This document shows positions 778 through 11,041 of a stretch of DNA of 11,041 nt, in pieces. Position numbers and translations under genes: made by a program. This stretch comes from Schaalia odontolytica (GTDB lineage Bacteria > Actinomycetota > Actinomycetes > Actinomycetales > Actinomycetaceae). The stretch's first letter is position 1; the number at the start of each line of letters is the position of its first letter. Below the pieces are notes generated by a model. The model searched no databases. It saw only the letters and a list, made by a program, of their open reading frames with translations, and had not been told where the DNA came from. The stretch is from positions 1 to 11,041 of the forward strand of contig CATYYP010000033.1 in NCBI GenBank assembly GCA_958415245.1, given 5' to 3'.

Positions 778-1986
778 TCACTGCGCGTGGTACCGGGGGC
801 TCGTGCCGAGGTGAGCCGGGTAACCGGACGCGCCCGAACTCACCACCTTCTCATCGAGGCCCCGGTACACATACGTGTCGTCGTTGTAAATCGAGCTCGG
901 GTTCACGAGTCCGTCGTAGTAATCGTCGATGTCATCAGGAGTCACGACGGAATCACCTTGCTTTTCTTCGAGGGGGTTCTCGTCCGGGTACCGCGAGGGA
1001 TCAGACGCCAGCAAAGCCGCAGGATCAACCTCACCATAACCGGTCCGATCGTTCCATTTGCCGCCCGTCCCTCGGGCGGTGGCAACCAGCGCCTGCAAAA
1101 TCTGATCCCCCGTAACCTCGTCATCAAAGTCGGACCATGCCAGAGCTAGCATGCCCGCAACCATAGGTGCAGAGTTCGAAGTACCCGCTGTTGTCACGAT
1201 TTTATTGGTGCTGGCCTGACGCACAGCCATCTCTCCCACTGCGGCAATGGAAACCCCGTCACCGTAGTTCGAGTAATCAGCAAAGCGCCCATCAGTTTCA
1301 AGTGCCGCGACGCCAACGACTCCACCCCACGAGGCAATGGTATCGTCGGAATTACGCTCACCATCGTTCCCCATAGAAACGAGAACCGGCACACCCTCGA
1401 CGACGGCGCGAGCGATCGCCCACCGCAACGACTCGCTATCCCTCGACACGTAGGTCGTCGAGATCGAGATGATGTCCACGCCGTCATTCAAGGCCTGCTC
1501 AATAAGCACGGATTGATCTGCATAGGCCGTTGAACGCACCCCCAGGTCACAGTCTCCGCCCGCTTCTCTCGTCGTCCCCGCCTGGACATAGCTGTAGAGC
1601 GTCGCACCAGGAGCGACACCGAAGTCCGGCGCAACCAGAAGCTGAGCCATAAATGTTGCGTGATCATTCGACTCCGCATCTGGCGTGACCTGACACGGGG
1701 ACTTGTCTTGGATATCAGCCCCTTGCAGCTCGGGAATTGACGTATCGATGCGGCCATCGATGACAGCGATGACCACGCCTTCACCCGTGTATCCCTGATC
1801 GTGCAGTGAGGCCAACGAGTAGCGCGAATAGTACGCCTCATCCGCCGCTGTGACCTTGCGATCCACCGCCTCTGCGGGGGCAGCGGGAGCGACGGGCGAG
1901 AGCACGGCCGTCAGGGCCAGCGCGCAGGCCGAGGCCAGAACGGAGAGGGCACGCAGGCCTCGGGACCGACCGGCCGACCGCATCAT
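778..1986 (-). CDS. secreted S8 (subtilisin-like) serine peptidase, paralog S8-A
   Basis: This is a 402-residue secreted subtilase. A Sec signal peptide covers about residues 1-40 (twin basic start, long Ala/Leu core, AEA before VDRK). The catalytic domain follows: Asp77 in VIDGRID, His109 in NDHATFM, oxyanion Asn207 in SMGND and Ser270 in GTSNSAP. All triad residues are present, but DTG has become DGR and HGT has become HAT. Two cysteines (about 98 and 146) are conserved in the other two paralogs and may form a disulfide. There is no C-terminal membrane helix, unlike mycosins. Instead a tail of about 60 residues ends in GYPAHLGTSPRYHAQ. An in-frame ATG at 2004 exists, but the AAAGGAAC ribosome site lies just inside it, and alignment with S8-B puts the start at 1986 or 1983. 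The substrate is unknown; position after mycP suggests work on T7SS-exported proteins. Confidence 0.88.
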   Translation of the reverse strand: MMRSAGRSRGLRALSVLASACALALTAVLSPVAPAAPAEAVDRKVTAADEAYYSRYSLASLHDQGYTGEGVVIAVIDGRIDTSIPELQGADIQDKSPCQVTPDAESNDHATFMAQLLVAPDFGVAPGATLYSYVQAGTTREAGGDCDLGVRSTAYADQSVLIEQALNDGVDIISISTTYVSRDSESLRWAIARAVVEGVPVLVSMGNDGERNSDDTIASWGGVVGVAALETDGRFADYSNYGDGVSIAAVGEMAVRQASTNKIVTTAGTSNSAPMVAGMLALAWSDFDDEVTGDQILQALVATARGTGGKWNDRTGYGEVDPAALLASDPSRYPDENPLEEKQGDSVVTPDDIDDYYDGLVNPSSIYNDDTYVYRGLDEKVVSSGASGYPAHLGTSPRYHAQ

Positions 1987-2002
1987 TGTGTCTGTTCCTT
2001 TC
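1853..2002 (-). repeat. direct repeat copy 1: ribosome site plus signal-peptide cassette of S8-A
   Basis: This 150-nt stretch aligns without gaps to 3134-3283, at a constant offset of 1281 nt. By hand I count about 14 differences in total, and none at all across 60 nt (1883-1942 against 3164-3223). It covers the ribosome-binding site, start codon and signal peptide of S8-A. Confidence 0.88.
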
Positions 2003-2049
2003 ATCGTGGCGTTTCAACATTCGCAAGGGCGTCGCGGGTCACTGCACGC

Positions 2050-3264
2050 TCATCCCTGGTAGTGGTAGAGCGGGCTCGTCCCCAGGTGGACCTCGTACCC
2101 CTGCCCTTCGGACAGAGCACTCTCCTCGTCGACGCCCCGGTATACGTACCAGTCGTCGTTCAGGACCTCGCGCGGGTTCGCCAGCCCGTAGTAGTAGTCG
2201 TAGAGGTCATCCCTATGGAAGGCGAAGCGACTACCCTTCTCGAGAAGCGGATTCTCCTCCGGGTACTGCGACGGATCGTCGGCCAGCAAAGCTGCCGGAT
2301 TGATCTCACCGTAGCCGGTATATTCGTTCCACTGCCCATTCGTCCCCCACGCGGTAGCCTGCACGGCCTGGAGAACCTGGTCCACGTTTGCCCCACCGCC
2401 TGCAAAACGCTGCCAGGCGAGGGCCAGGAAACCCGCAACCATAGGGCCCGCAAATGAGGTGCCCCTCACCTCCTTGAGCTGATTGTCGATCGTTGACCTA
2501 CCAACAACGACCCCCACAGCGGAAAGAGTAACCCCCTCCCCGTAGTTCGAATAGTCCGCGAAGTTACCACTTGTGTCGAGGGCGGAGACACCAATGACGC
2601 CTCCCCACATACCCAGCGAATTACCGGGATCGCGGGTTCGATCATTACCGGCACCAGCGACAATTGGCACCCCTGATAGAGCAGCCCGAGAAATAGCCCA
2701 GCGCATCCCCTGACTCTGGTCCCTGCCATAAGTGGAGGAGATCGCAATGATATCGGCACCGTCGTTGAGGGCCTGCTCGATGAGATAATCCAATCGGGCT
2801 CGCGCTCCCGGACGCGACCATCCCAGAGCACAGTCATCGGTACTCTTCTGAGCGTCCAGAACCACCGTATAGTTATAGATCGTAGCCTTTGGCGCAATAC
2901 CGAAGTCCGGAGAGACCAAGAGCTGCGCAATGAAGGTCGCGTGCTCGTCACTTGACTCATCAGGAAGCACCTCACACGGACTCTTTTCGACGATGTCCGC
3001 ACCCTGCAGCTCAGGAATGGACGTATCGATACGGCCGTCGATGACCGCGATAATCACGCCCTCGCCCGTGTACCCCTGGGCATGCAGCGCGTCCAGGTTG
3101 TACCGCGAGTAGTACTCCTCATCCGAGACTCTCACCTTGCGATCCACCGCCTCCGCAGGGGCCGCGGGAGCGACGGGCGAGAGCACGGCCGTCAGGGCCA
3201 GCGCGCAGGCCGAGGCCAGAACGCTTAAGGCACGCAGGCCTCGGGATCGACCGATCGATCGCAT
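2050..3264 (-). CDS. secreted S8 (subtilisin-like) serine peptidase, paralog S8-B
   Basis: This 404-residue protein is the close sister of S8-A. Its first 44 residues are almost the same, including the signal peptide ending AEA-VDRKV. The catalytic residues are Asp76 (VIDGRID), His108 (DEHATFI), Asn207 (GAGND) and Ser270 (GTSFAGP), and the Cys97/Cys145 pair is kept. The C-terminal tail ends GYEVHLGTSPLYHYQG. There is no membrane anchor, so the mature enzyme should be released or stay in the cell envelope without one. The ATG at 3264 follows AAAGGAACAG with about 12 nt spacing, the same leader as S8-A. It lies 64 nt after S8-C and 63 nt before S8-A, on the same strand, and is probably co-transcribed with them. 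The catalytic domain is clearly related to S8-A but has diverged much more than the signal region. Substrate unknown. Confidence 0.9.
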   Translation of the reverse strand: MRSIGRSRGLRALSVLASACALALTAVLSPVAPAAPAEAVDRKVRVSDEEYYSRYNLDALHAQGYTGEGVIIAVIDGRIDTSIPELQGADIVEKSPCEVLPDESSDEHATFIAQLLVSPDFGIAPKATIYNYTVVLDAQKSTDDCALGWSRPGARARLDYLIEQALNDGADIIAISSTYGRDQSQGMRWAISRAALSGVPIVAGAGNDRTRDPGNSLGMWGGVIGVSALDTSGNFADYSNYGEGVTLSAVGVVVGRSTIDNQLKEVRGTSFAGPMVAGFLALAWQRFAGGGANVDQVLQAVQATAWGTNGQWNEYTGYGEINPAALLADDPSQYPEENPLLEKGSRFAFHRDDLYDYYYGLANPREVLNDDWYVYRGVDEESALSEGQGYEVHLGTSPLYHYQG

Positions 3265-3283
3265 CGTCTTGTCTGTTCCTTTC
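3134..3283 (-). repeat. direct repeat copy 2: ribosome site plus signal-peptide cassette of S8-B
   Basis: Partner of the repeat at 1853-2002, aligned without gaps. The perfect 60-nt core is 3164-3223. It carries the ribosome-binding site, start codon and signal-peptide codons of S8-B. S8-C has a different signal-peptide sequence and does not share this block. Confidence 0.88.
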
Positions 3284-3302
3284 GTTCGGGCACTCAGGCA
3301 CT

Positions 3303-3328
3303 CGGGCTCGCGGGAAAGCCGAGGCCCG
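3303..3328 (-). other. intercistronic hairpin directly after the S8-C stop codon
   Basis: On the minus strand, CGGGCCTCG (3328-3320) pairs with CGAGCCCG (3310-3303), with one bulged C and a 9-nt loop. It begins immediately after the S8-C stop codon. No T-run follows, so it is not a standard intrinsic terminator. It could slow ribosomes or RNase, or partly attenuate transcription into S8-B. Confidence 0.4.
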
Positions 3329-4516
3329 TCACTGACTGTGGTACCGGGGGCTGGTGCCGATGTGGGTCGGGTAGCCGTGTTCGCGGCTGAGTGCAGCCTC
3401 TTCGTTCACGCCGCGGTAGACGTAGACATCATCATTACGAATCAGAATGGGGTTAACGACGCCGTCCATGTAGTCGATGACGTCATCCCTCGTAGGCAAA
3501 GACCTGTTGTCCTGCGGTACGCACGGATTCTCGTCCGTATACTGCGACGGGTCTGACCGGAGGAACGCGATCGGGTCGGCGGGGCCGTAGCCGGTGAACT
3601 TGTTCCACTCGTTTCCGCTTCTCCCCGTTGCAGCCAGAGCTTGAAGCATCTGCCCTGCGCTCACGTCCTCGTCAAAGTGCTGCCAGCCGAGCGCCAAAAA
3701 GCCGGCGATAATCGGGGTCGCGAAGGACGTTCCGTCAGCCTCCTCGACACGACCGGTCGACGTGTCACGCGTCAGGACTGTTCCCAGGGCGGTCGTCAGC
3801 AACCCGTTGCCCCAGTTCGTGTACTCCGTCAGGCTGCCGTCATGCAGCGTCGCTCCAATGCCACAGATTCCCGTCCAGATAGCCAGCGCGTCATCGGGGT
3901 CCTCGGTAGTCTCGTTGCCCATCGCGGCCACGACGATGACGCCCGAGGCCATGGCTCTGGCCATGGCCCATCGAAGGTCGATGGAATTATCGTCAAAGTT
4001 ACTGGAGATCGTGATGATGTCGGCGCCGTCGTTGATCGCTTGCTCGATGAGGAGAGGCGTGTCGTTCTCTGCGTCACCCGTCCAGCCGGACAGCGTACAG
4101 TTCGACGCATCACCATGAAGGGGGAGTGTATAGGTGTAGAGCGTCGCGTCCGGCGCCACACCAAACTCGGGCGAGACCAGGATCTGCGCGACCGTGGTGC
4201 CGTGCGCCATATTCTCGGGGGCTGAGTCCTTGACGCAGGGCATCCGATCCTGAATGTTCGCGCCCCTGAGTTCAGGAATGTTCGGGTTGACCGCGCCATC
4301 CAGGACCGCGATGGTGACGCCCTTGCCCGTGATTCCCTGATCGTGGATGGACTTGAGCTTGTAGTACTTGTAGTAGTCCTGCTTGTCAGCGGTCACCGGC
4401 GGGTCGGCGGCGTAAGCCGGCGCAACGGGGGTGAGGCTCGCGCCGAGGCTGAGCGCGAGTGCGCTGGCGAGGACGCCCACGCTCTTCGCCCAGCGCCGCG
4501 ACACCCAGGTGCTCAC
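3329..4516 (-). CDS. secreted S8 (subtilisin-like) serine peptidase, paralog S8-C
   Basis: This 395-residue protein is the most distinct member of the triplet. It has a signal peptide (about 1-37, ending AYA before AD) and a subtilase domain with Asp73 (VLDGAVN), His105 (MAHGTTVAQ, the most canonical of the three), Asn201 (AMGNE) and Ser264 (GTSFATP). Cys94 and Cys140 match the paired cysteines of the paralogs, and Cys218 and Cys332 are extra. The C-terminal tail ends GYPTHIGTSPRYHSQ. There is no C-terminal membrane helix. The start is a GTG at 4516 that overlaps the mycP stop as GTGA, with AGAGGA 6 nt upstream, so it is translationally coupled to the mycosin gene. That coupling is the best evidence that the peptidase triplet belongs to the secretion operon. 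Its role is inferred to be processing of exported proteins; no substrate can be named. Confidence 0.9.
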   Translation of the reverse strand: MSTWVSRRWAKSVGVLASALALSLGASLTPVAPAYAADPPVTADKQDYYKYYKLKSIHDQGITGKGVTIAVLDGAVNPNIPELRGANIQDRMPCVKDSAPENMAHGTTVAQILVSPEFGVAPDATLYTYTLPLHGDASNCTLSGWTGDAENDTPLLIEQAINDGADIITISSNFDDNSIDLRWAMARAMASGVIVVAAMGNETTEDPDDALAIWTGICGIGATLHDGSLTEYTNWGNGLLTTALGTVLTRDTSTGRVEEADGTSFATPIIAGFLALGWQHFDEDVSAGQMLQALAATGRSGNEWNKFTGYGPADPIAFLRSDPSQYTDENPCVPQDNRSLPTRDDVIDYMDGVVNPILIRNDDVYVYRGVNEEAALSREHGYPTHIGTSPRYHSQ

Positions 4517-5931
4517 GCCAGGTCCTCTTCTGAGTCTTCGACCACGGCGGGCCTACCGCGCAGGTGGGAGAGGATCACGAGGCCTCCGATCAGCGACGCC
4601 CCGAGGACGGCGATCGCGGACACGATGTAGGCGCGGATCGTCAGGTTGTTATCGCGCGAGGTCAAGTCCGCCGAGGCTACGGCCTGTCGGGCGGGAGCGG
4701 GATGTTCTGCGGCGTTAGGGTGTTCGGGCCCGAACCTGGTGCCGATATCGGTGAAGGTGAGGGCGTCGAAGGGAGCGACGACACCCCAGCCGAGGGCGTC
4801 GGTGCGTTGATCGGGCGTGCCGCGCAGGGCGGTCACTTCGAGCCGGTATTTCCACATGTCGGGCCCCTCATCGGGGTAGGCCGAAGCCACGAGGGCCGCG
4901 AAGCCGCCCGCGTATGCGGTCGCGTAGGACGAGGACGGCAGGGGCTGGTCCCCCTCGTATCCGCCGACGAGGCAGTCGGCCTGATCGAACCAGGTCGTGA
5001 GGATGACGCCGGCGGGAACGGCGAGCTTGACGTGCGCGCCGTGCACCTGCTGGTCCGAGGCCGATCCGTCAGCGTTCGAGGCGGTCACGCCGAGCACGCC
5101 CGGGTAGGCGGCCGGGTAGACGACCTGATTCGCTTCCTGGCCCTGGTACACGTTGCCGGTCGAGGCCACGACGAGGGCCCGGCCGCGCACGGCGTTGACG
5201 GCTGCCTCCAGCTGGGGGTCCCCCTCGGGAGCAGATTGTGCGACGACGATAATCTGCGCGCCATGGTCGGCGGCCCACTGGATCCCGCGGCCGACCTTCG
5301 ACATGAAGGTCTCTTCGCCTTCCTTGTGCGGGCGATTGTCCTGAAGCCCGGTGTCAACGCGCACCGGGAGGATCTTCGCCTCGGGGGCGACACCGACGAG
5401 GCCGGATCCCATCTCCTTGGGCAGCTCCTGCGCCGCGATCGCACCGGCGATGGCAGTGCCGTGTTCGCCGACGTCGACGCGCCCGTCGGTGTTTTCACCA
5501 CTCAGGTCGATGCCGGGGAGCACGACGGGCCCGTCCGGGCCCTGGAAGTGCTGGTTGCCGGCCGCGACGCCCGAGTCGACGATCGCGACCGTCACGCCAC
5601 GGCCTCGTGAGACCTCCCAGGCACGACGCACTCCGACGGCGTCGAAGATGGCGGGTGCTTGCTTGATGTACGAGGGCGAGTTTTGCGAGCATTCGCCGCC
5701 CTCGGACTCGCTCGCGGGCGTCGTCGCCGACGACGAGGGAGTCGCAGTCGGAGTCGGACGCACGCTCGGGGTCGGCACCGGGTCAGCGTGGGCGACGCCG
5801 GGACCGAACGCACCGGAGTCCTCAGGCGAGACGACGGGTGCGGCAATCGGCACGAGCACGAGTCCTGCGATCAGCGAGGCCCCGACGAGGCCTCGGCCCA
5901 GGAAGCGGGAACGCGTACGGCGGGCGCTCAC
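4513..5931 (-). CDS. mycP: type VII secretion-associated serine protease, mycosin (MycP)
   Basis: This 472-residue membrane-anchored subtilase has the mycosin layout: signal peptide (about 1-49, ending AHA), a Pro/Thr/Ser-rich linker (51-79), the N-terminal extension leading to RRAWEVSRGRGVTVAIVDSG, the S8 domain, and a C-terminal transmembrane helix (about 434-455) with a short cytosolic tail. The triad is Asp119 (IVDSG), His157 (GEHGTAIAG) and Ser335, with Asn260 in STGN. The serine motif reads SSSYATAYAGG where GTSxAAPxVAG is usual, so the glycine, threonine and proline are all replaced while the serine remains. Cys81 and Cys320 may pair. In mycobacteria MycP is needed for ESX secretion and for stability of the EccB-E complex. 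Start is GTG at 5931, overlapping the eccB stop as GTGA; the S8-C gene overlaps its stop in the same manner. Confidence 0.93.
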   Translation of the reverse strand: MSARRTRSRFLGRGLVGASLIAGLVLVPIAAPVVSPEDSGAFGPGVAHADPVPTPSVRPTPTATPSSSATTPASESEGGECSQNSPSYIKQAPAIFDAVGVRRAWEVSRGRGVTVAIVDSGVAAGNQHFQGPDGPVVLPGIDLSGENTDGRVDVGEHGTAIAGAIAAQELPKEMGSGLVGVAPEAKILPVRVDTGLQDNRPHKEGEETFMSKVGRGIQWAADHGAQIIVVAQSAPEGDPQLEAAVNAVRGRALVVASTGNVYQGQEANQVVYPAAYPGVLGVTASNADGSASDQQVHGAHVKLAVPAGVILTTWFDQADCLVGGYEGDQPLPSSSYATAYAGGFAALVASAYPDEGPDMWKYRLEVTALRGTPDQRTDALGWGVVAPFDALTFTDIGTRFGPEHPNAAEHPAPARQAVASADLTSRDNNLTIRAYIVSAIAVLGASLIGGLVILSHLRGRPAVVEDSEEDLA

Positions 5932-7382
5932 TTGAGCCCCACTGAGGCGGCTGCAGCTTTCGGCGACATCTCGGAGCCCGGCGGGATGAGCTCACCCCAC
6001 GCACGCGGGACCGACGCAGCCTCGGACGACTGCCACCCGAGGGCATTCATGGAGACGGACGGAACATCGCCAAGGGAATGGCGGAAGCCCATATCGGAGA
6101 TGAAGACGTAGGATGCGGCCTCGCCACCACCGCCGGACGTGAGGGCGAGGAGGGCGCCAGATCCGCCCGCGACAGTGACGTTGCGCGTCGTGGACGGCCC
6201 CTTCGGGGACTGCAGAGATTCCGCATCGTAGGACGCTTCGATCGCGCGCTTCTCGGGCATGGTGACCAGGTCAAACGTCGGATTAGCGCGATCAGTGGTG
6301 TCCATCGCGGCGCACAGGACCGTCCGGCTGGCCGCATCGCGGCTCTCATTAAACCACTCGGGCGATTCAAAGTCCTCGACGTCAGGCCAATCGTCACCGA
6401 CGAAGACAGCTTGGACGGGCTCGACGTACTTGAACATCTCGGTTGGGAACTTCTTCGAGGGCGGTGCGTCCTGATACAGGCGCGCCGCAGTCGAGTTGAA
6501 GACCACCAGATTCGAGTCGTCGATCACCAGGTAGGAGTTTTTGACCTGACCGGCGGAATCGACCTGATCAAGGACCATTCCGATGGTGATGCCCTCGTTC
6601 TTCAGGTCACCGGGCAGGTTCTTGGCCGGCTGCCCAGCGTTCTCGATGTCGTTGTAGCTCCAGGGACGCAGCGGCGTGCCCGAAGGGAAGAGGTCGAGCC
6701 ACTCAGGTTCGACGGTGATCGGGTAGCTGGTGAGGTTCTGGAAGGACAGCGCCCAGTCACCCAGGCGGCTCACACTGGAGTCGATGTAGTACTTCTTGCC
6801 TTTTTCCCGATCGACGAAGTACTTGTCTCCACTGCCGGTCGCCTGAACGAGCGCGGATGTCGCCTGCTTCACCGGAAAATTCGCCGCAGGCAGTTCCTTG
6901 GCGATCCACGTGTGATAGCCGGACTCCATGTCGCAGGAGAGCCACTGCTTACTCAGCATGTCGGGTACTGGCACGTCATCGGGGACATCGGGCAGGCCGA
7001 TCTGGGCGCCGCGCGGAATGTTCTCGAGTGACGACGCTGACGCCTGGATGGTCGTCAGCGTCGATTCGGGGCTGAGGAGCCTAGCGGTGGTCACGTTCGC
7101 GATCGGATGAAGAACACCATTCGCCCAGAAATAGCGGGCACCCGTCCCCTTCACGTCGATCAGCTGATACTGCGCCTCCCCGAGTTTCGGGTTCGGTGAA
7201 AAAACGCGCATGCCGATTCCCACCACGCTGAGAATAACGGCGACCACGAGCCCGAAAATAAGGGGGCGCACGGGCGAGGGCGTGTCGACCTCGCGCCCGT
7301 CGGGCGTGCCGGAGGTAAAGGCCGTGATCAGGCGGTTTCGATTAAAGCGCTGGGCTTCGAGGATGTCTTTACTCGACGGCAT
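5928..7382 (-). CDS. eccB: type VII secretion system core protein EccB
   Basis: This 484-residue protein fits EccB, the ESX core subunit with a short cytosolic N-terminus, one transmembrane helix and a large periplasmic domain. The N-terminus carries the family-like DILEAQRFNRNRLITAF (6-22). The membrane helix is about 40-60. The rest is the repeat-built outer domain with a widely spaced cysteine pair (150 and 357) and the C-terminal stretch YVFISDMGFRHSLGD followed by a Val-Pro and a LIPPG-like motif, as in other EccB proteins. EccB forms part of the EccB-C-D-E translocon in the inner membrane. The ATG at 7382 lies 3 nt past the eccD stop, and its GGAG ribosome site (7390-7393) sits inside the end of eccD, so translation is coupled. 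It is followed by mycP with a 4-nt overlap. Confidence 0.95.
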   Translation of the reverse strand: MPSSKDILEAQRFNRNRLITAFTSGTPDGREVDTPSPVRPLIFGLVVAVILSVVGIGMRVFSPNPKLGEAQYQLIDVKGTGARYFWANGVLHPIANVTTARLLSPESTLTTIQASASSLENIPRGAQIGLPDVPDDVPVPDMLSKQWLSCDMESGYHTWIAKELPAANFPVKQATSALVQATGSGDKYFVDREKGKKYYIDSSVSRLGDWALSFQNLTSYPITVEPEWLDLFPSGTPLRPWSYNDIENAGQPAKNLPGDLKNEGITIGMVLDQVDSAGQVKNSYLVIDDSNLVVFNSTAARLYQDAPPSKKFPTEMFKYVEPVQAVFVGDDWPDVEDFESPEWFNESRDAASRTVLCAAMDTTDRANPTFDLVTMPEKRAIEASYDAESLQSPKGPSTTRNVTVAGGSGALLALTSGGGGEAASYVFISDMGFRHSLGDVPSVSMNALGWQSSEAASVPRAWGELIPPGSEMSPKAAAASVGLK

Positions 7383-7385
7383 GGC

Positions 7386-8747
7386 TCAGCTCCACAGGTA
7401 GACGGCCAGGGGAAGCAGGACAAACAGCGACAGCACCGAGATCGTGTCGGCGATGCGCGTCAGGTGCGGGCGTGCACGAGGCCCGACGACGTTCGTGATG
7501 ACGAGGACGAGGGCGGTCGCGATCGCCGACAGCGTCAGCCACGGCATGGTCCTCGGGTCCGCGTAGACACCGAGCACGGTGGCGACGAGGATCACAATGA
7601 GGCCGGTGAGAGCGCCGAGAAGCACCTCGACGCGAGCGCGGATGGAACGCGTCTGGAGAACGAGGGAGACCGCACCGAGCACGATGAGGGTCAGCGGCAG
7701 GGAGATCGACCGCGTTTCGGGTGCCGTCATCAGGGCGACGGCCAGGAAGAGAGCGGCGATTGCCCCGCCGGCGCGCAGAGCGACGACGAACACGAAGGAG
7801 GTGCTGACCTGGTCGGTGATGCCCTTCGCGGGAATCTGCTCAGTCGTGTCCGCGTCCAGGATGCGCACGGGGATGTGGGCCAGCGCGATCCAGGGCGCGA
7901 CCTGGAGAAGCACAATCACGAGGGCAAAGAGGATGGCGGAGATGCCCGCCTGAGAGAGCTGACCGAGCCGAACCAGGAGGCCGGTGGCGGCCAAAACCGT
8001 ACCGACGACGAGAGGGGCCGCGATAGAGATTCGGTACCGCTTGGGCAGCGCGAGAACGGCGAGGGAGCCGATCAGGAGGCCGAGGCCGGTCCACCCCCAG
8101 CCGGCGGTGTCCCAGTGGCTCTGGCTCAGGCGCAGAGCCGATGCGGCCGTCAGGAAGGGGACGGTGTGTGCCAGCGCGATGCCGCTTGCCTGCGGGTACT
8201 TCCGGGTCATCACGGCGGACGTCGCAGTCACGAGCAGCGCCGCGACGATGCCGATTGCGCCGGCAATGACGTTGTACCTCGTGACGGAGTGAGAATCGAG
8301 GGCGGTGAGGGCGTCCGGAGGAGTGGTGGCCAGGAGGAGGGCTGCGACGAAGACGAGGCCCGCCGCAGAGAGTGCAGCAAGAGTGCGAGCGTCGTCACGT
8401 GTCCAAGGAGTGGACACTCTTTCGACGACTTGACCGACCGCTTCGGTGAGGTCGTCATAGACCATATCGGCAGCGCCCTCACCCAGAGGCTCGAGCGTGA
8501 GCGCCGCGCCGGCGCGCACTCCCTGGGCAGACAGGGACTTGGATTGATCGAGCAGACGACCCGAGGCCGTGCGCACTGCATAGCCGTCATTCGTTGGCTG
8601 ATCAGTGAAAGCGCCCACCGTTTCAACCATTCCAGGGAGCAGCTCCACCAGGGGGATCGACTGCGGAAGCGTCACGTCACTACGGTCAACGCCGTACGTG
8701 ATCGTGAGCGGAATCAGCGCCACTCCTCGTGATGTTTTCGATGCCAT
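7386..8747 (-). CDS. eccD: type VII secretion integral membrane protein EccD
   Basis: This 453-residue protein has an N-terminal ubiquitin-like (YukD-type) domain of about 90 residues (PLTITYGVDRSDVTLPQSIP onward), a charged linker, and then about eleven transmembrane helices to the C-terminus (ending LAVYLWS). That is the EccD architecture; EccD is the polytopic subunit of the ESX translocon, normally a dimer. I chose the ATG at 8747 because GGGAGGA (8752-8758) stands right before it. A longer in-frame start at 8831 would place the start codon inside the predicted -35 box and would add 28 residues that do not look like the family. It is the first gene of the leftward row, followed by eccB after 3 nt. 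Confidence 0.94.
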   Translation of the reverse strand: MASKTSRGVALIPLTITYGVDRSDVTLPQSIPLVELLPGMVETVGAFTDQPTNDGYAVRTASGRLLDQSKSLSAQGVRAGAALTLEPLGEGAADMVYDDLTEAVGQVVERVSTPWTRDDARTLAALSAAGLVFVAALLLATTPPDALTALDSHSVTRYNVIAGAIGIVAALLVTATSAVMTRKYPQASGIALAHTVPFLTAASALRLSQSHWDTAGWGWTGLGLLIGSLAVLALPKRYRISIAAPLVVGTVLAATGLLVRLGQLSQAGISAILFALVIVLLQVAPWIALAHIPVRILDADTTEQIPAKGITDQVSTSFVFVVALRAGGAIAALFLAVALMTAPETRSISLPLTLIVLGAVSLVLQTRSIRARVEVLLGALTGLIVILVATVLGVYADPRTMPWLTLSAIATALVLVITNVVGPRARPHLTRIADTISVLSLFVLLPLAVYLWS

Positions 8748-8751
8748 TGGG

Positions 8752-8758
8752 TCCTCCC
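8752..8758 (-). promoter_or_regulatory. ribosome-binding site that fixes the eccD start
   Basis: Minus-strand GGGAGGA lies 4 nt before the ATG at 8747. It decides between this start and the in-frame ATG at 8831, which has no comparable site. Confidence 0.75.
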
Positions 8759-8802
8759 GAATGCCGCGTGATGGGGTTTTGGCTACACGACACAACCCTG
8801 TA

Positions 8803-8831
8803 AGTCTAGATTCTCGGTCAGGTTTTGTCAT
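8803..8831 (-). promoter_or_regulatory. candidate housekeeping-type promoter for the eccD row
   Basis: Reading the minus strand, ATGACA (8831-8826) matches TTGACA at five of six bases. It is followed after exactly 17 nt by TAGACT (8808-8803), which matches TATAAT at four of six. The predicted start of transcription is near 8796, giving a leader of about 50 nt before eccD. This is a consensus match by eye, not a mapped start. Confidence 0.55.
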
Positions 8832-8861: not shown

Positions 8862-8941
8862 AAAACATGGTTAGTATTCATGTGTCCCCATGCTCTCACG
8901 CATTCCGGCGAGAGAGTTCACTCATACAAATGGAGGTTCAC

Positions 8942-9247
8942 ATGGCAGACCAGAGGGCCGTAGAAGGTGCCCTAAGAGACGGTTACACAGCGGTCGGGCA
9001 GACCAAGGAAGCGATCGACGGCCACCTTCAGCGTCTTCGGGGCGACCTGGAAGCCGTCCGCAGCTCCTGGCAGGGCGAGGCGTCGGTGCAGTTCCAGTCG
9101 CTGATGGATCAGTGGGATGAGAACGCAAAAAAGGTTAACCAGGCTCTTCAGGATCTCGCTGATAACCTGAGCGCCACCGAATCGTCGATGGGAGACAACG
9201 AGTCCCAGACCAAGAACTCGTTCTCCCAGCTGCTCGGCGGCCTGTGA
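8942..9247 (+). CDS. WXG100-family protein, first of an Esx pair
   Basis: This 101-residue protein is of WXG100 size and shape: helix 1 (about 5-42), the turn SSWQG with Trp43 and Gly45, and helix 2 (about 48-85), then a polar tail. It has no signal peptide. Proteins of this family are exported by ESX systems as helical hairpin dimers. No C-terminal YxxxD/E motif is present, so it probably relies on its partner gene (9270-9551) for targeting. The ATG at 8942 is preceded by GGAGG with a 5-nt gap; an in-frame ATG at 8867 has no ribosome site and adds non-helical residues. It is the first gene of the rightward unit, divergent from eccD. Confidence 0.93.
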   Translation: MADQRAVEGALRDGYTAVGQTKEAIDGHLQRLRGDLEAVRSSWQGEASVQFQSLMDQWDENAKKVNQALQDLADNLSATESSMGDNESQTKNSFSQLLGGL

Positions 9248-9269: not shown

Positions 9270-9551
9270 ATGGATTTCCAGGTAAGTTACGGCGCTCTTG
9301 AGGCCGCTGCCACTGACATCAAAGGCGGTGCCAATAACCTGCAGCAGTGCCTCGACGACCTCGAGGGGACGCTGAACAAGCTGCGCTCGAATTGGGAAGG
9401 CAAGACACAGGAAGCCTACGACGCCGCTCAGCGTCAGTGGAACCAGGGCCTTGAGGGCCTGAAGGACGTGCTGACCCGCACCTCCGCCGCCGTTGATTCG
9501 GCTCGCGACAACTACCAGTCGACGGACCAGTCCAACGCTGCCCGCTTCTGA
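9270..9551 (+). CDS. WXG100-family protein, second of an Esx pair, with YxxxD export signal
   Basis: This 93-residue protein has the WXG100 fold signature: helix 1 (about 3-40), the turn SNWEG with Trp42 and Gly44, and helix 2 (about 46-82). Just after helix 2 it carries YQSTD (82-86), which fits the YxxxD/E general T7SS signal found in CFP-10/EsxB-type partners. I infer that it is the signal-bearing member of a heterodimer with the protein encoded 22 nt upstream. AGGAG lies 6 nt before the ATG. One cysteine (Cys27) lies in helix 1. A strong terminator begins 25 nt past its stop, so the two genes form a short transcription unit of their own, apart from the core genes. Confidence 0.93.
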   Translation: MDFQVSYGALEAAATDIKGGANNLQQCLDDLEGTLNKLRSNWEGKTQEAYDAAQRQWNQGLEGLKDVLTRTSAAVDSARDNYQSTDQSNAARF

Positions 9552-9808: not shown

Positions 9809-11041
9809 TCAGTGCACCGAGTCGGCGTCGGCGTAGACGATCGTGGCCCTCCGGTCTCCCATGATGACCTCGGTACCGGCGGGCACCTCGACCGCCTGTC
9901 CGCCCGTCAGTTCCATGACGCGGCCATCGGGCGTGCGAATCTGCGTGCCGTTCGCGGAGAAGGAGTCTTCGATCCAGGCGCCGGTGGCCGTGGGCCCCAA
10001 ACGCATGTGCGTGCGCGAGAGCGACATCGTTGCGTCGGGAACGACGACCGCACGCGAGCCCTCGACGGCTGCGGGTGCACGCCCAAGAGTCACCGGCATG
10101 TCGATGAGCTCGCGCTGCCCGGAGTCGAAGATGAGCCACAGGAGCTGCGTGCGCGGCGGCGTCGCTGGTGCGCCCCACTGGGACTGGCCGGCCCCACCCC
10201 ACTGGGAGGTGCCGGAGCTCTGGGCGGCCTGCACGTCGCGGCGACTCGGCGGAGGTCCGGGCACACCCGATGCGGGGGCCACATACTGCCCTCCTGCGTT
10301 GTACGAGGCCTGGGCGGGCTGAGGGGGCACCTGCTGAGCGGGAGCTCCCCAGCTGGCCTGGGCGGGAACCTGCGCGGGCGCGGCAGGCGTCGACGAGGCG
10401 GGCACGCTGGGCACCGGAGGTACCGCGGGCACGGACGGTGTCGCGGGGCGCTGAGGCGCGGGGCGGTGAGTGTCCGGTGTTCCCTGGGGCGGCGCGAGGA
10501 GCGCCTCGAACTCGTTGGACTCGCGCGCGGCGGGCGCAGCGGGAGCCGAAGGCGCAGCGGACAGCCCGGGCGCAGCAGGCGCACTGGGTGCCGCCGGCAT
10601 GGCGGGGGCCGCAGGCAGCGGGGAGACCGCCGGGGCCGCGGGAGCACTGTAGCCCGTCCCAAAGGGGTCGTTCACACGCTGACCGGGCGCGGAATAGTCC
10701 GGCGCCGAGGAGGGCACGGGCGTTAGCGGCGCAGCGGGAGCGTTCCACTGGTCAACCCCCGCATGCACGCTCTCAAAACCACTGGGGCCCATGTGCGGAC
10801 GCTCGGAGCGCTCAACCTCACCGGGGCCCGCCGCGAGCGCCGCATGCTTGCGCAAGTCGACAAAGCGGGTACGGGTGGGGCCGCTCAGCCACGTACGCCC
10901 ATCGTGGACCATCGCATACGAGGCGAGCAGGCCCACGACGGTGACCTGGAGGAGCACAGCGAGGGCCGTGTAGCCCAGCGCCGCGCCGAGCGACGGAGTC
11001 TGCGCGTCTTCCTCGTCGCGGATCATGCACACGCGCATGAG
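9809..11041 (-). CDS. RDD-FHA domain protein, 5' part cut off by window edge
   Basis: The frame is open to the right edge, giving 410 visible residues. An ATG at 11038 exists, but the codon before it is in frame and the sequence after it looks like the middle of a protein. Visible parts, counted from 11041: the end of a membrane region with one hydrophobic helix (about 20-44), then RTWLSGPTRTRFVDLR (49-64), which resembles the RTWHDRxxxTxVVDLR ending of RDD domains; a long Pro/Ala/Ser-rich linker (about 98-297); and a C-terminal FHA domain (about 300-401). The FHA core is intact: GR (320-321), SRTH (342-345) and NG (364-365). FHA domains bind phosphothreonine peptides, so this is a membrane protein likely to report Ser/Thr kinase activity to the secretion system. 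FHA call sure; RDD call is by resemblance. Confidence 0.85.
   Translation of the reverse strand, partial: LMRVCMIRDEEDAQTPSLGAALGYTALAVLLQVTVVGLLASYAMVHDGRTWLSGPTRTRFVDLRKHAALAAGPGEVERSERPHMGPSGFESVHAGVDQWNAPAAPLTPVPSSAPDYSAPGQRVNDPFGTGYSAPAAPAVSPLPAAPAMPAAPSAPAAPGLSAAPSAPAAPAARESNEFEALLAPPQGTPDTHRPAPQRPATPSVPAVPPVPSVPASSTPAAPAQVPAQASWGAPAQQVPPQPAQASYNAGGQYVAPASGVPGPPPSRRDVQAAQSSGTSQWGGAGQSQWGAPATPPRTQLLWLIFDSGQRELIDMPVTLGRAPAAVEGSRAVVVPDATMSLSRTHMRLGPTATGAWIEDSFSANGTQIRTPDGRVMELTGGQAVEVPAGTEVIMGDRRATIVYADADSVH

Follow-up and report, generated by a model that had tools for sequence, protein, structure and literature searches.

The window analysed here, an 11,041-nucleotide stretch of a contig (CATYYP010000033.1) from Schaalia odontolytica, a bacterium of the human mouth, carries an ESX locus of the type VII secretion system (T7SS) in which three S8 peptidases sharing a C-terminal tail, here called S8Ts, follow the core mycosin gene mycP. 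The genes on the minus strand encode, in order, EccD (7386–8831; PF08817 and PF19053), EccB (5928–7382; PF05108, 171.8 bits), the mycosin MycP (4513–5931), S8T-3 (3329–4516; 395 amino acids, aa), S8T-2 (2050–3264; 404 aa), S8T-1 (778–2004, with a possible start at 1986; 408 aa), a YbaB/EbfC-like protein (248–643; PF02575, 41.3 bits) and an EspC-like protein truncated by the window end (3–251; PF10824, 24.6 bits against a cut-off of 23.5). The position of the YbaB/EbfC-like gene is one that we take to be EspL-like. Two WXG100 proteins (PF06013) are encoded on the plus strand at 8939–9247 and 9270–9551, and the gene at 9809–11038, FHA-like by eye, has no Pfam or NCBIfam match. A preliminary reading made from the sequence alone had placed three S8 peptidases after mycP; their coordinates, strand and order were correct, and the GTG start of S8T-3 overlaps the mycP stop codon in a GTGA, as that reading had described.

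All three S8Ts belong to the Peptidase_S8 family (PF00082), with scores of 105, 89.6 and 88.1 bits against a cut-off of 21.8, and their active-site Asp, His, Asn and Ser are identical to one another and to those of MycP in the alignment. The core mycosin profile TIGR03921 (cut-off 278.75 bits) gives only 130.6, 123.2 and 121.4 bits for the S8Ts; MycP, at 214.2 bits, also falls below the cut-off. The NCBIfam identities PatA, dentilisin, QhpE and IteS were rejected, as their scores lie far under the cut-offs and reflect generic S8 similarity. In a tree of 57 S8T and 8 MycP sequences, which has long branches and a midpoint root used for drawing only, the two groups form separate clades with 100/100 support each, and the S8Ts do not group with the mycosins. 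MycP has a C-terminal transmembrane (TM) helix (hydropathy 2.55), a feature present in all eight mycosins examined. No 19-residue segment of TM strength was found by hydropathy in the C-terminal parts of the S8Ts, where the maximum was 0.74 when three anchored relatives were set aside; those three are the only anchored proteins among 57 family members, the other 54, including the window trio, being anchorless. The complete triads and missing membrane anchors asserted by the sequence-only reading are borne out by the alignment and by hydropathy, and its signal peptides find support in the hydrophobic N-termini of all three proteins, as judged by hydropathy only. Structural matches place the start of the catalytic domain at about residue 40, by eye straight after the signal peptide, and since it begins there the S8Ts have no classical propeptide.

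The tails comprise residues 321–395 of S8T-3 (3332–3556, minus strand), 328–404 of S8T-2 (2053–2283, minus strand) and 333–408 of S8T-1 (781–1008, minus strand). They had been described as lying beyond the catalytic domain and as absent from the mycosin, both of which the alignment supports, but also as about 60 residues long, when the shared segment in fact extends over ~70–75. Among the 60 listed of 203 PDB sequence matches, the aligned part reaches no further than profile position 311 of 387, and the ends of the 50 listed structural matches of the S8T-3 model fall between model residues 320 and 338. On the matches listed, the tail lies outside the S8 fold, and its reading as a general part of that fold, which would have undone the idea of a separate tail, was rejected. 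The secreted S8A enzymes subtilisin BPN' and Carlsberg likewise have no match past residue ~328, and the S8Ts differ from them in having no propeptide before the catalytic domain and an added tail.

Seven tail positions (P331, Y365, Y367, G369, G387, S389 and P390) are invariant in all 56 aligned family members, as are His105, Asn201 and Ser264 on the catalytic side. The mean share of the commonest residue per column is 0.56 in the catalytic domain and 0.58 in the whole tail, rising to 0.69 around the YVYRG motif and to 0.86 at residues 385–394, with a variable stretch (0.29) lying between these two regions. The ratio of non-synonymous to synonymous substitution rates (dN/dS) was 0.16–0.30 for the tail versus 0.18–0.20 for the catalytic domain in four comparisons, indicating purifying selection on both. 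This selection and the conservation across 56 diverse proteins rule out chance or an annotation artefact, and no sign of the tail as a domain common to non-S8 proteins was seen in genome or protein searches. The AlphaFold2 model of S8T-3 (mean predicted local distance difference test score, pLDDT, 87.1; predicted TM-score, pTM, 0.86) gives the tail block a pLDDT of 80–95, so that the tail appears in the model as an ordered segment instead of a loosely attached tag. Three divergent members (G021, G031 and G034; L086, L082 and L083) have a TM helix behind the tail, either almost directly or after a low-complexity linker, and judging from these the tail did not originate as a terminal tag. Together with the ordered model, they weaken the earlier suggestion of a C-terminal tag, which had been drawn from conservation up to the last residues. 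The simplest reading assumes an S8T ancestor with a mycosin-like membrane anchor that was later lost, possibly more than once, a point that the tree does not settle.

Across the 56-member alignment the catalytic His, Asn and Ser are invariant, and Asp is present in 51 members. Gly takes its place in three related, tail-bearing S8s of tandem runs (L056:8318–9547, L062:11703–12929 and L063:7630–8793) and Glu in two others (L076:9036–10205 and L084:9046–10242), and the tail is retained in these copies. Given these replacements, some S8Ts may function without proteolysis.

A profile of the tail found matches in 23 of 213 Actinomycetaceae genomes, all inside the 35-genome genus set (Schaalia). Within the S. 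odontolytica group there are at least 11 matches in G001, the closest relative of the window among the genomes analysed, 12 in G002, 14 in G003 and 13 in G005, and further genomes have at least 12 (G004, one of them a fragment), 12 (G010), 10 (G017) and 12 (G022), mostly away from the ESX core. Statements on dispersed copies refer to these relatives' genomes rather than to that of the window. In a sample of 394 genomes of the class, the same profile matched only two, namely the Schaalia reference G002 and, marginally, G526 (26 residues, E 1.2e-4). A full-length S8T profile gave 1–17 matches in each of 25 of the 35 genus genomes, a count that includes some unrelated long subtilases or fragments. 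Compared by eye, the tail matches coincide with S8T matches, the exceptions being two in G011:C1 next to stretches of N, one of which is a match of only tail length in the full-length search. We dropped the notion of a silent repository of partial cassettes, as the short pieces in G004, G011 and G020 are S8T gene fragments; L077, too, contains a broken-up S8T. Compared with the protein database, the tail of a distant member retrieved five proteins, all S8 and one of them (P0123) from a metagenome-assembled genome labelled Propionibacteriaceae, and a first protein search retrieved 1334 relatives at E 1e-5, of which the 120 listed all have PF00082 and the tail. The family has, on sequence evidence, expanded in Schaalia and is nearly restricted to this genus. 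The expectation that tail hits would be S8 proteins in T7SS loci holds in its first half, since wherever this could be checked only S8 genes or pieces of them were found, but not in its second, as most copies lie away from the ESX core.

Within the genus, the family is tied to ESX by its occurrence in ESX-positive genomes only. EccB was found in 25 of the 35 genomes, and the tail is present in 23 of these 25 and in none of the ten EccB-negative genomes (Fisher p 3.6e-7, uncorrected for kinship). The two EccB-positive genomes without the tail are G014 and G024.

At the ESX site, the number of S8T genes behind mycP varies by genome, with one in L005, L087 and L029, two in L001, L002, L003 and L096, and three in L004 and the window. 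The triplet that the sequence-only reading had treated as the unit is one state of a run of one, two or three genes. All ten ESX-site copies included in the tree fall into a single clade (97/87), in which S8T-3 clusters with the single copy of L005 and L087, and S8T-1 and S8T-2 form a further group. The signal-peptide regions of S8T-1 and S8T-2 (1861–2004 and 3121–3264) have a synonymous divergence (dS) of only 0.17 over 41 codons, compared with ~2.0, near saturation, for the catalytic domains, which points to gene conversion of this region. Two of the records used here, titled Xylanimonas cellulosilytica 352_XCEL (L003) and Sanguibacter keddieii 250_SKED (L004), carry Schaalia-type ESX loci, belong to the genus group of G002 and are probably mislabelled isolates.

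The window's S8Ts are encoded directly behind mycP, but copies elsewhere are mostly dispersed, so that a place next to the ESX core does not define the family. We examined essentially all S8T loci of G001, G002, G005, G010, G017 and G022 (the ESX site of G022 over 4 kb only, L029) and sites from further species, with genes called by our own simple codon-score caller and labelled by phmmer. The six genomes contain 70 S8T genes in 47 runs, one of which spans two adjacent fetched pieces. Directly upstream of 34 runs (53 genes) lies a gene for a protein that we call c1; six runs follow mycP and seven follow neither, among them L108:7564–8718 of G022. Across a wider set, which comprises 64 runs and 94 genes, the leader is c1 in 42, mycP in 6, a lipoprotein gene (c2) in 2 and another gene or an edge in 14; L086, counted among the last, has c1 upstream according to a later profile search. 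Most dispersed copies accordingly stand directly behind c1, and the two genes overlap in 19 of 32 measured junctions, the largest gap being 71 bases, with starts as given by the simple caller. Directly upstream of c1, a gene matching the profile of a second protein, c4, is present in 30 of 34 cases, including all 29 with a full-length c1; of the five short c1, four are pieces of 44, 69, 176 and 212 aa and the fifth, of 130 aa, lies at the end of a contig. All 34 c1 genes adjoin an S8T in these loci, which were picked for S8T, and an independent genome-wide search for c1 found the same in 5/5 cases in G005 and 6/6 in G017.

Several c4-c1 arrangements connect the pair to ESX loci. The EccC-adjacent cassette additionally contains the lipoprotein c2, and in G034 the order mycP-c4-c1-S8T occurs within one ESX locus. 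In G071 and G125, both outside the genus, c4-c1 stands beside EccC without a tail-bearing S8. Of the two tail-less EccB-positive genomes, G014 has c4 and c1 some 7 kb from an EccC piece, and G024 has c1 beside the WXG100 genes and a c4-like gene at a greater distance. That most copies lie far from the ESX core is, on its face, what the sequence-only reading had named as refuting its proposal; however, because the outlying copies mostly follow c4-c1, a pair that also occurs in ESX loci and looks like T7SS cargo, a connection with ESX substrates persists in a different form. The family is real and conserved, and a candidate T7SS substrate pair has expanded along with it; the unit of the family is not the triplet but the cassette.

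Some further features of these loci were observed. c1 remnants stand beside S8Ts at L054:9389–9523 and G010:C2:2089509–2090246, indicating that the protease can outlive its neighbour. A separate S8T clade (L049:8143–9345, L057:7573–8700 and L062:7923–10387) occurs as single genes or pairs, convergent to the EccC-linked cassette and with neither c1 nor mycP in front, and L108:7564–8718 is placed alike. In L075, L078 and L081 an EspC-like gene, followed by genes for an Abhydrolase_8 protein and DUF4853-like proteins, lies beside S8T cassettes.

c1 is a protein of ~500 aa without a Pfam model (for example L050:8895–10442; L138, L139 and L140) that is also encoded in ESX loci of other Actinomycetaceae. 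It was matched in 32 of the 213 family genomes at E 1e-5, seven of them outside the genus set. Its architecture combines a long helical hairpin, which in most members includes an FxG/WXG-like turn, with a C-terminal part that is disordered. Known-domain searches with 25 members gave one Pfam and one NCBIfam match, each in a single member; the latter, to a uridylyltransferase (E 1.3e-5), was rejected as low-complexity similarity. Sequence comparison of c1 with the PDB produced nothing convincing and Foldseek no match at E 0.001, and the fold is weakly PPE-like. EspB is absent among the 50 structural matches listed for c1, which excludes nothing. c4 is a small hairpin protein with a WxxE turn that is invariant in 16/16 members; behind the turn, the export motif YxxxD/E occurs in its strict form in 2/16 and in the relaxed form [YF]xxx[DE] in 11/16. 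Its seven Pfam matches each occur in one of the 16 members, EspC being among them at E 0.036. The c4-c1 pair looks like an unannotated T7SS substrate pair.

Distances between c1 proteins are correlated with those between the adjacent S8Ts (r 0.94 for 36 pairs and r 0.81 for 28 S. odontolytica-group pairs; 0 of 5000 permutations in each case). Within single genomes the result is mixed, with r of 0.74 in G002 (50/2000 permutations as high), −0.44 in G005 (1577/2000), 0.39 in G010 (443/2000), 0.58 in G017 (16/2000), 0.90 in G022 (166/2000) and 0.995 in G001 (3 pairs, no test), and we do not offer it as proof of contact between c1 and S8T. By segment, the c1 N-domain co-diverges with the S8 catalytic domain at r 0.81 and with the tail at r 0.55, and the tail gives r 0.21 with the c1 C-terminus and r 0.10 with the c1 low-complexity stretch. 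The weaker co-divergence of the tail fits a tail that serves all copies alike, although the tail is short and the difference may partly be noise.

The S8Ts are best read as a second-mycosin family, that is, secreted subtilases distinct from the core mycosin, mostly anchorless and equipped with an ordered tail. We give an even chance to the proposal that they are dedicated proteases for c1-type ESX substrates. An S8T exported by Sec would then meet ESX-exported c1 outside the membrane and trim its disordered C-terminal part, as MycP1 does with EspB, its catalytic domain being tuned to the cognate c1. The tail would do the same in every copy, most likely either stabilise the fold or dock to a partner, the ESX complex or the envelope, that all copies share. 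At the window locus, where no c1 adjoins the S8Ts, the likely substrates would be the EspC-like protein and, judging from relatives, a WXG100-like protein encoded just downstream. As a more tentative extension, possible rather than probable, the c4-c1-S8T cassette may have multiplied around the Schaalia genome, with a single ESX machine serving many variants of the substrate. Each variant would bring a soluble mycosin of its own, the catalytic domain of which co-evolves with it, and the common tail would tie all copies to the same machine or surface.

The S8Ts could instead be structural or assembly factors for ESX export, like MycP, with the tail as a docking surface and proteolysis incidental. 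One study on mycosins reports that MycP is essential for secretion and that the protease activity of MycP1 is dispensable although its presence is needed (PMC5082899); the five members that have lost the catalytic Asp and kept the tail, and the mycosin-like layout of the three with a TM helix behind it, agree with such a role. The retention of His, Asn and Ser in every aligned member and of Asp in 51, together with a catalytic-domain dN/dS of ~0.18–0.20, is harder to reconcile with it, and the lack of an anchor in 54 of 57 members would be odd for a factor of a membrane complex, which leaves this explanation unlikely. Another possibility, quite unlikely by itself and combinable with dedicated proteases, is that the tail acts on the active site as an inhibitor or folding chaperone, replacing the missing N-terminal propeptide. 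The start of the catalytic domain at about residue 40, the pLDDT and pTM values, which suggest that the tail is placed on the core in the model, and the conservation of residues 385–394, the highest among the parts measured, are what such a tail would predict, but copies without Asp keep it and in anchored members it runs into the TM helix. Finally, the S8Ts could be secreted proteases that scavenge or act on the host, expanded in an ordinary way and unconnected with the T7SS. This would account for many soluble, secreted copies far from the ESX core, but is improbable given that 40 of 47 runs stand behind c1 or mycP and that, within the genus, only ESX-positive genomes have the tail.

MycP is described as an ESX core component (PMC11217815), and mycosins as tail-anchored, some being annotated as S8 peptidases (PMC10924467). 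The S8Ts differ from MycP1 and MycP3 (TIGR03921; PDB 4m1z and 4kg7) in reaching only 121–131 of the 278.75 bits required, in forming their own clade (100/100), in mostly lacking a TM helix, in the extra tail and in their number, with at least 10–14 tail matches in some genomes. The closest functional parallel comes from mycobacterial ESX-1, where MycP1 is reported to cut EspB in its disordered C-terminal part, after which EspB oligomerises (PMC10140165). Both systems would pair a protease family with helical, WXG-like, C-terminally disordered proteins, but c1 is unannotated with a weakly PPE-like fold, the Schaalia gene pair is adjacent and multiplied, and it is known here from sequence, with cleavage postulated by analogy. 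The PE/PPE substrates of mycobacteria are encoded in two-gene units that are specific to a lineage, present in many copies and scattered away from the ESX cores. The c4-c1 pair shares this arrangement; unlike PE/PPE, to which no sequence relation was found, it is accompanied by a dedicated protease. The accessible part of a report of ESX genes in Actinotignum (PMC5720513) does not contain the word mycosin, and a term search of the available text of PMC11131293 found no mention of S8 family, serine peptidase, subtilisin, protease or type VII. In the portions covered of the open-licence literature on type VII secretion, proteases and additional mycosins in Schaalia and Actinomyces, no description of the S8T family was recognised.

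What mycosins contribute to type VII secretion beyond the cutting of EspB is an open question, and in mycobacteria this contribution is hard to separate from assembly of the machine. The mycosin-like proteases of Schaalia are mostly anchor-free, multiplied and mostly encoded beside a candidate substrate. If the pairing is true, they would provide many matched and mismatched protease-substrate pairs for tests of specificity, and c1 would represent a large, unannotated family of candidate T7SS substrates. As regards the origin of the window, the plasmid collection searched gave no near match, and the closest genome match, Schaalia strain ORNL0103, encodes the window's first S8 at 98% identity.

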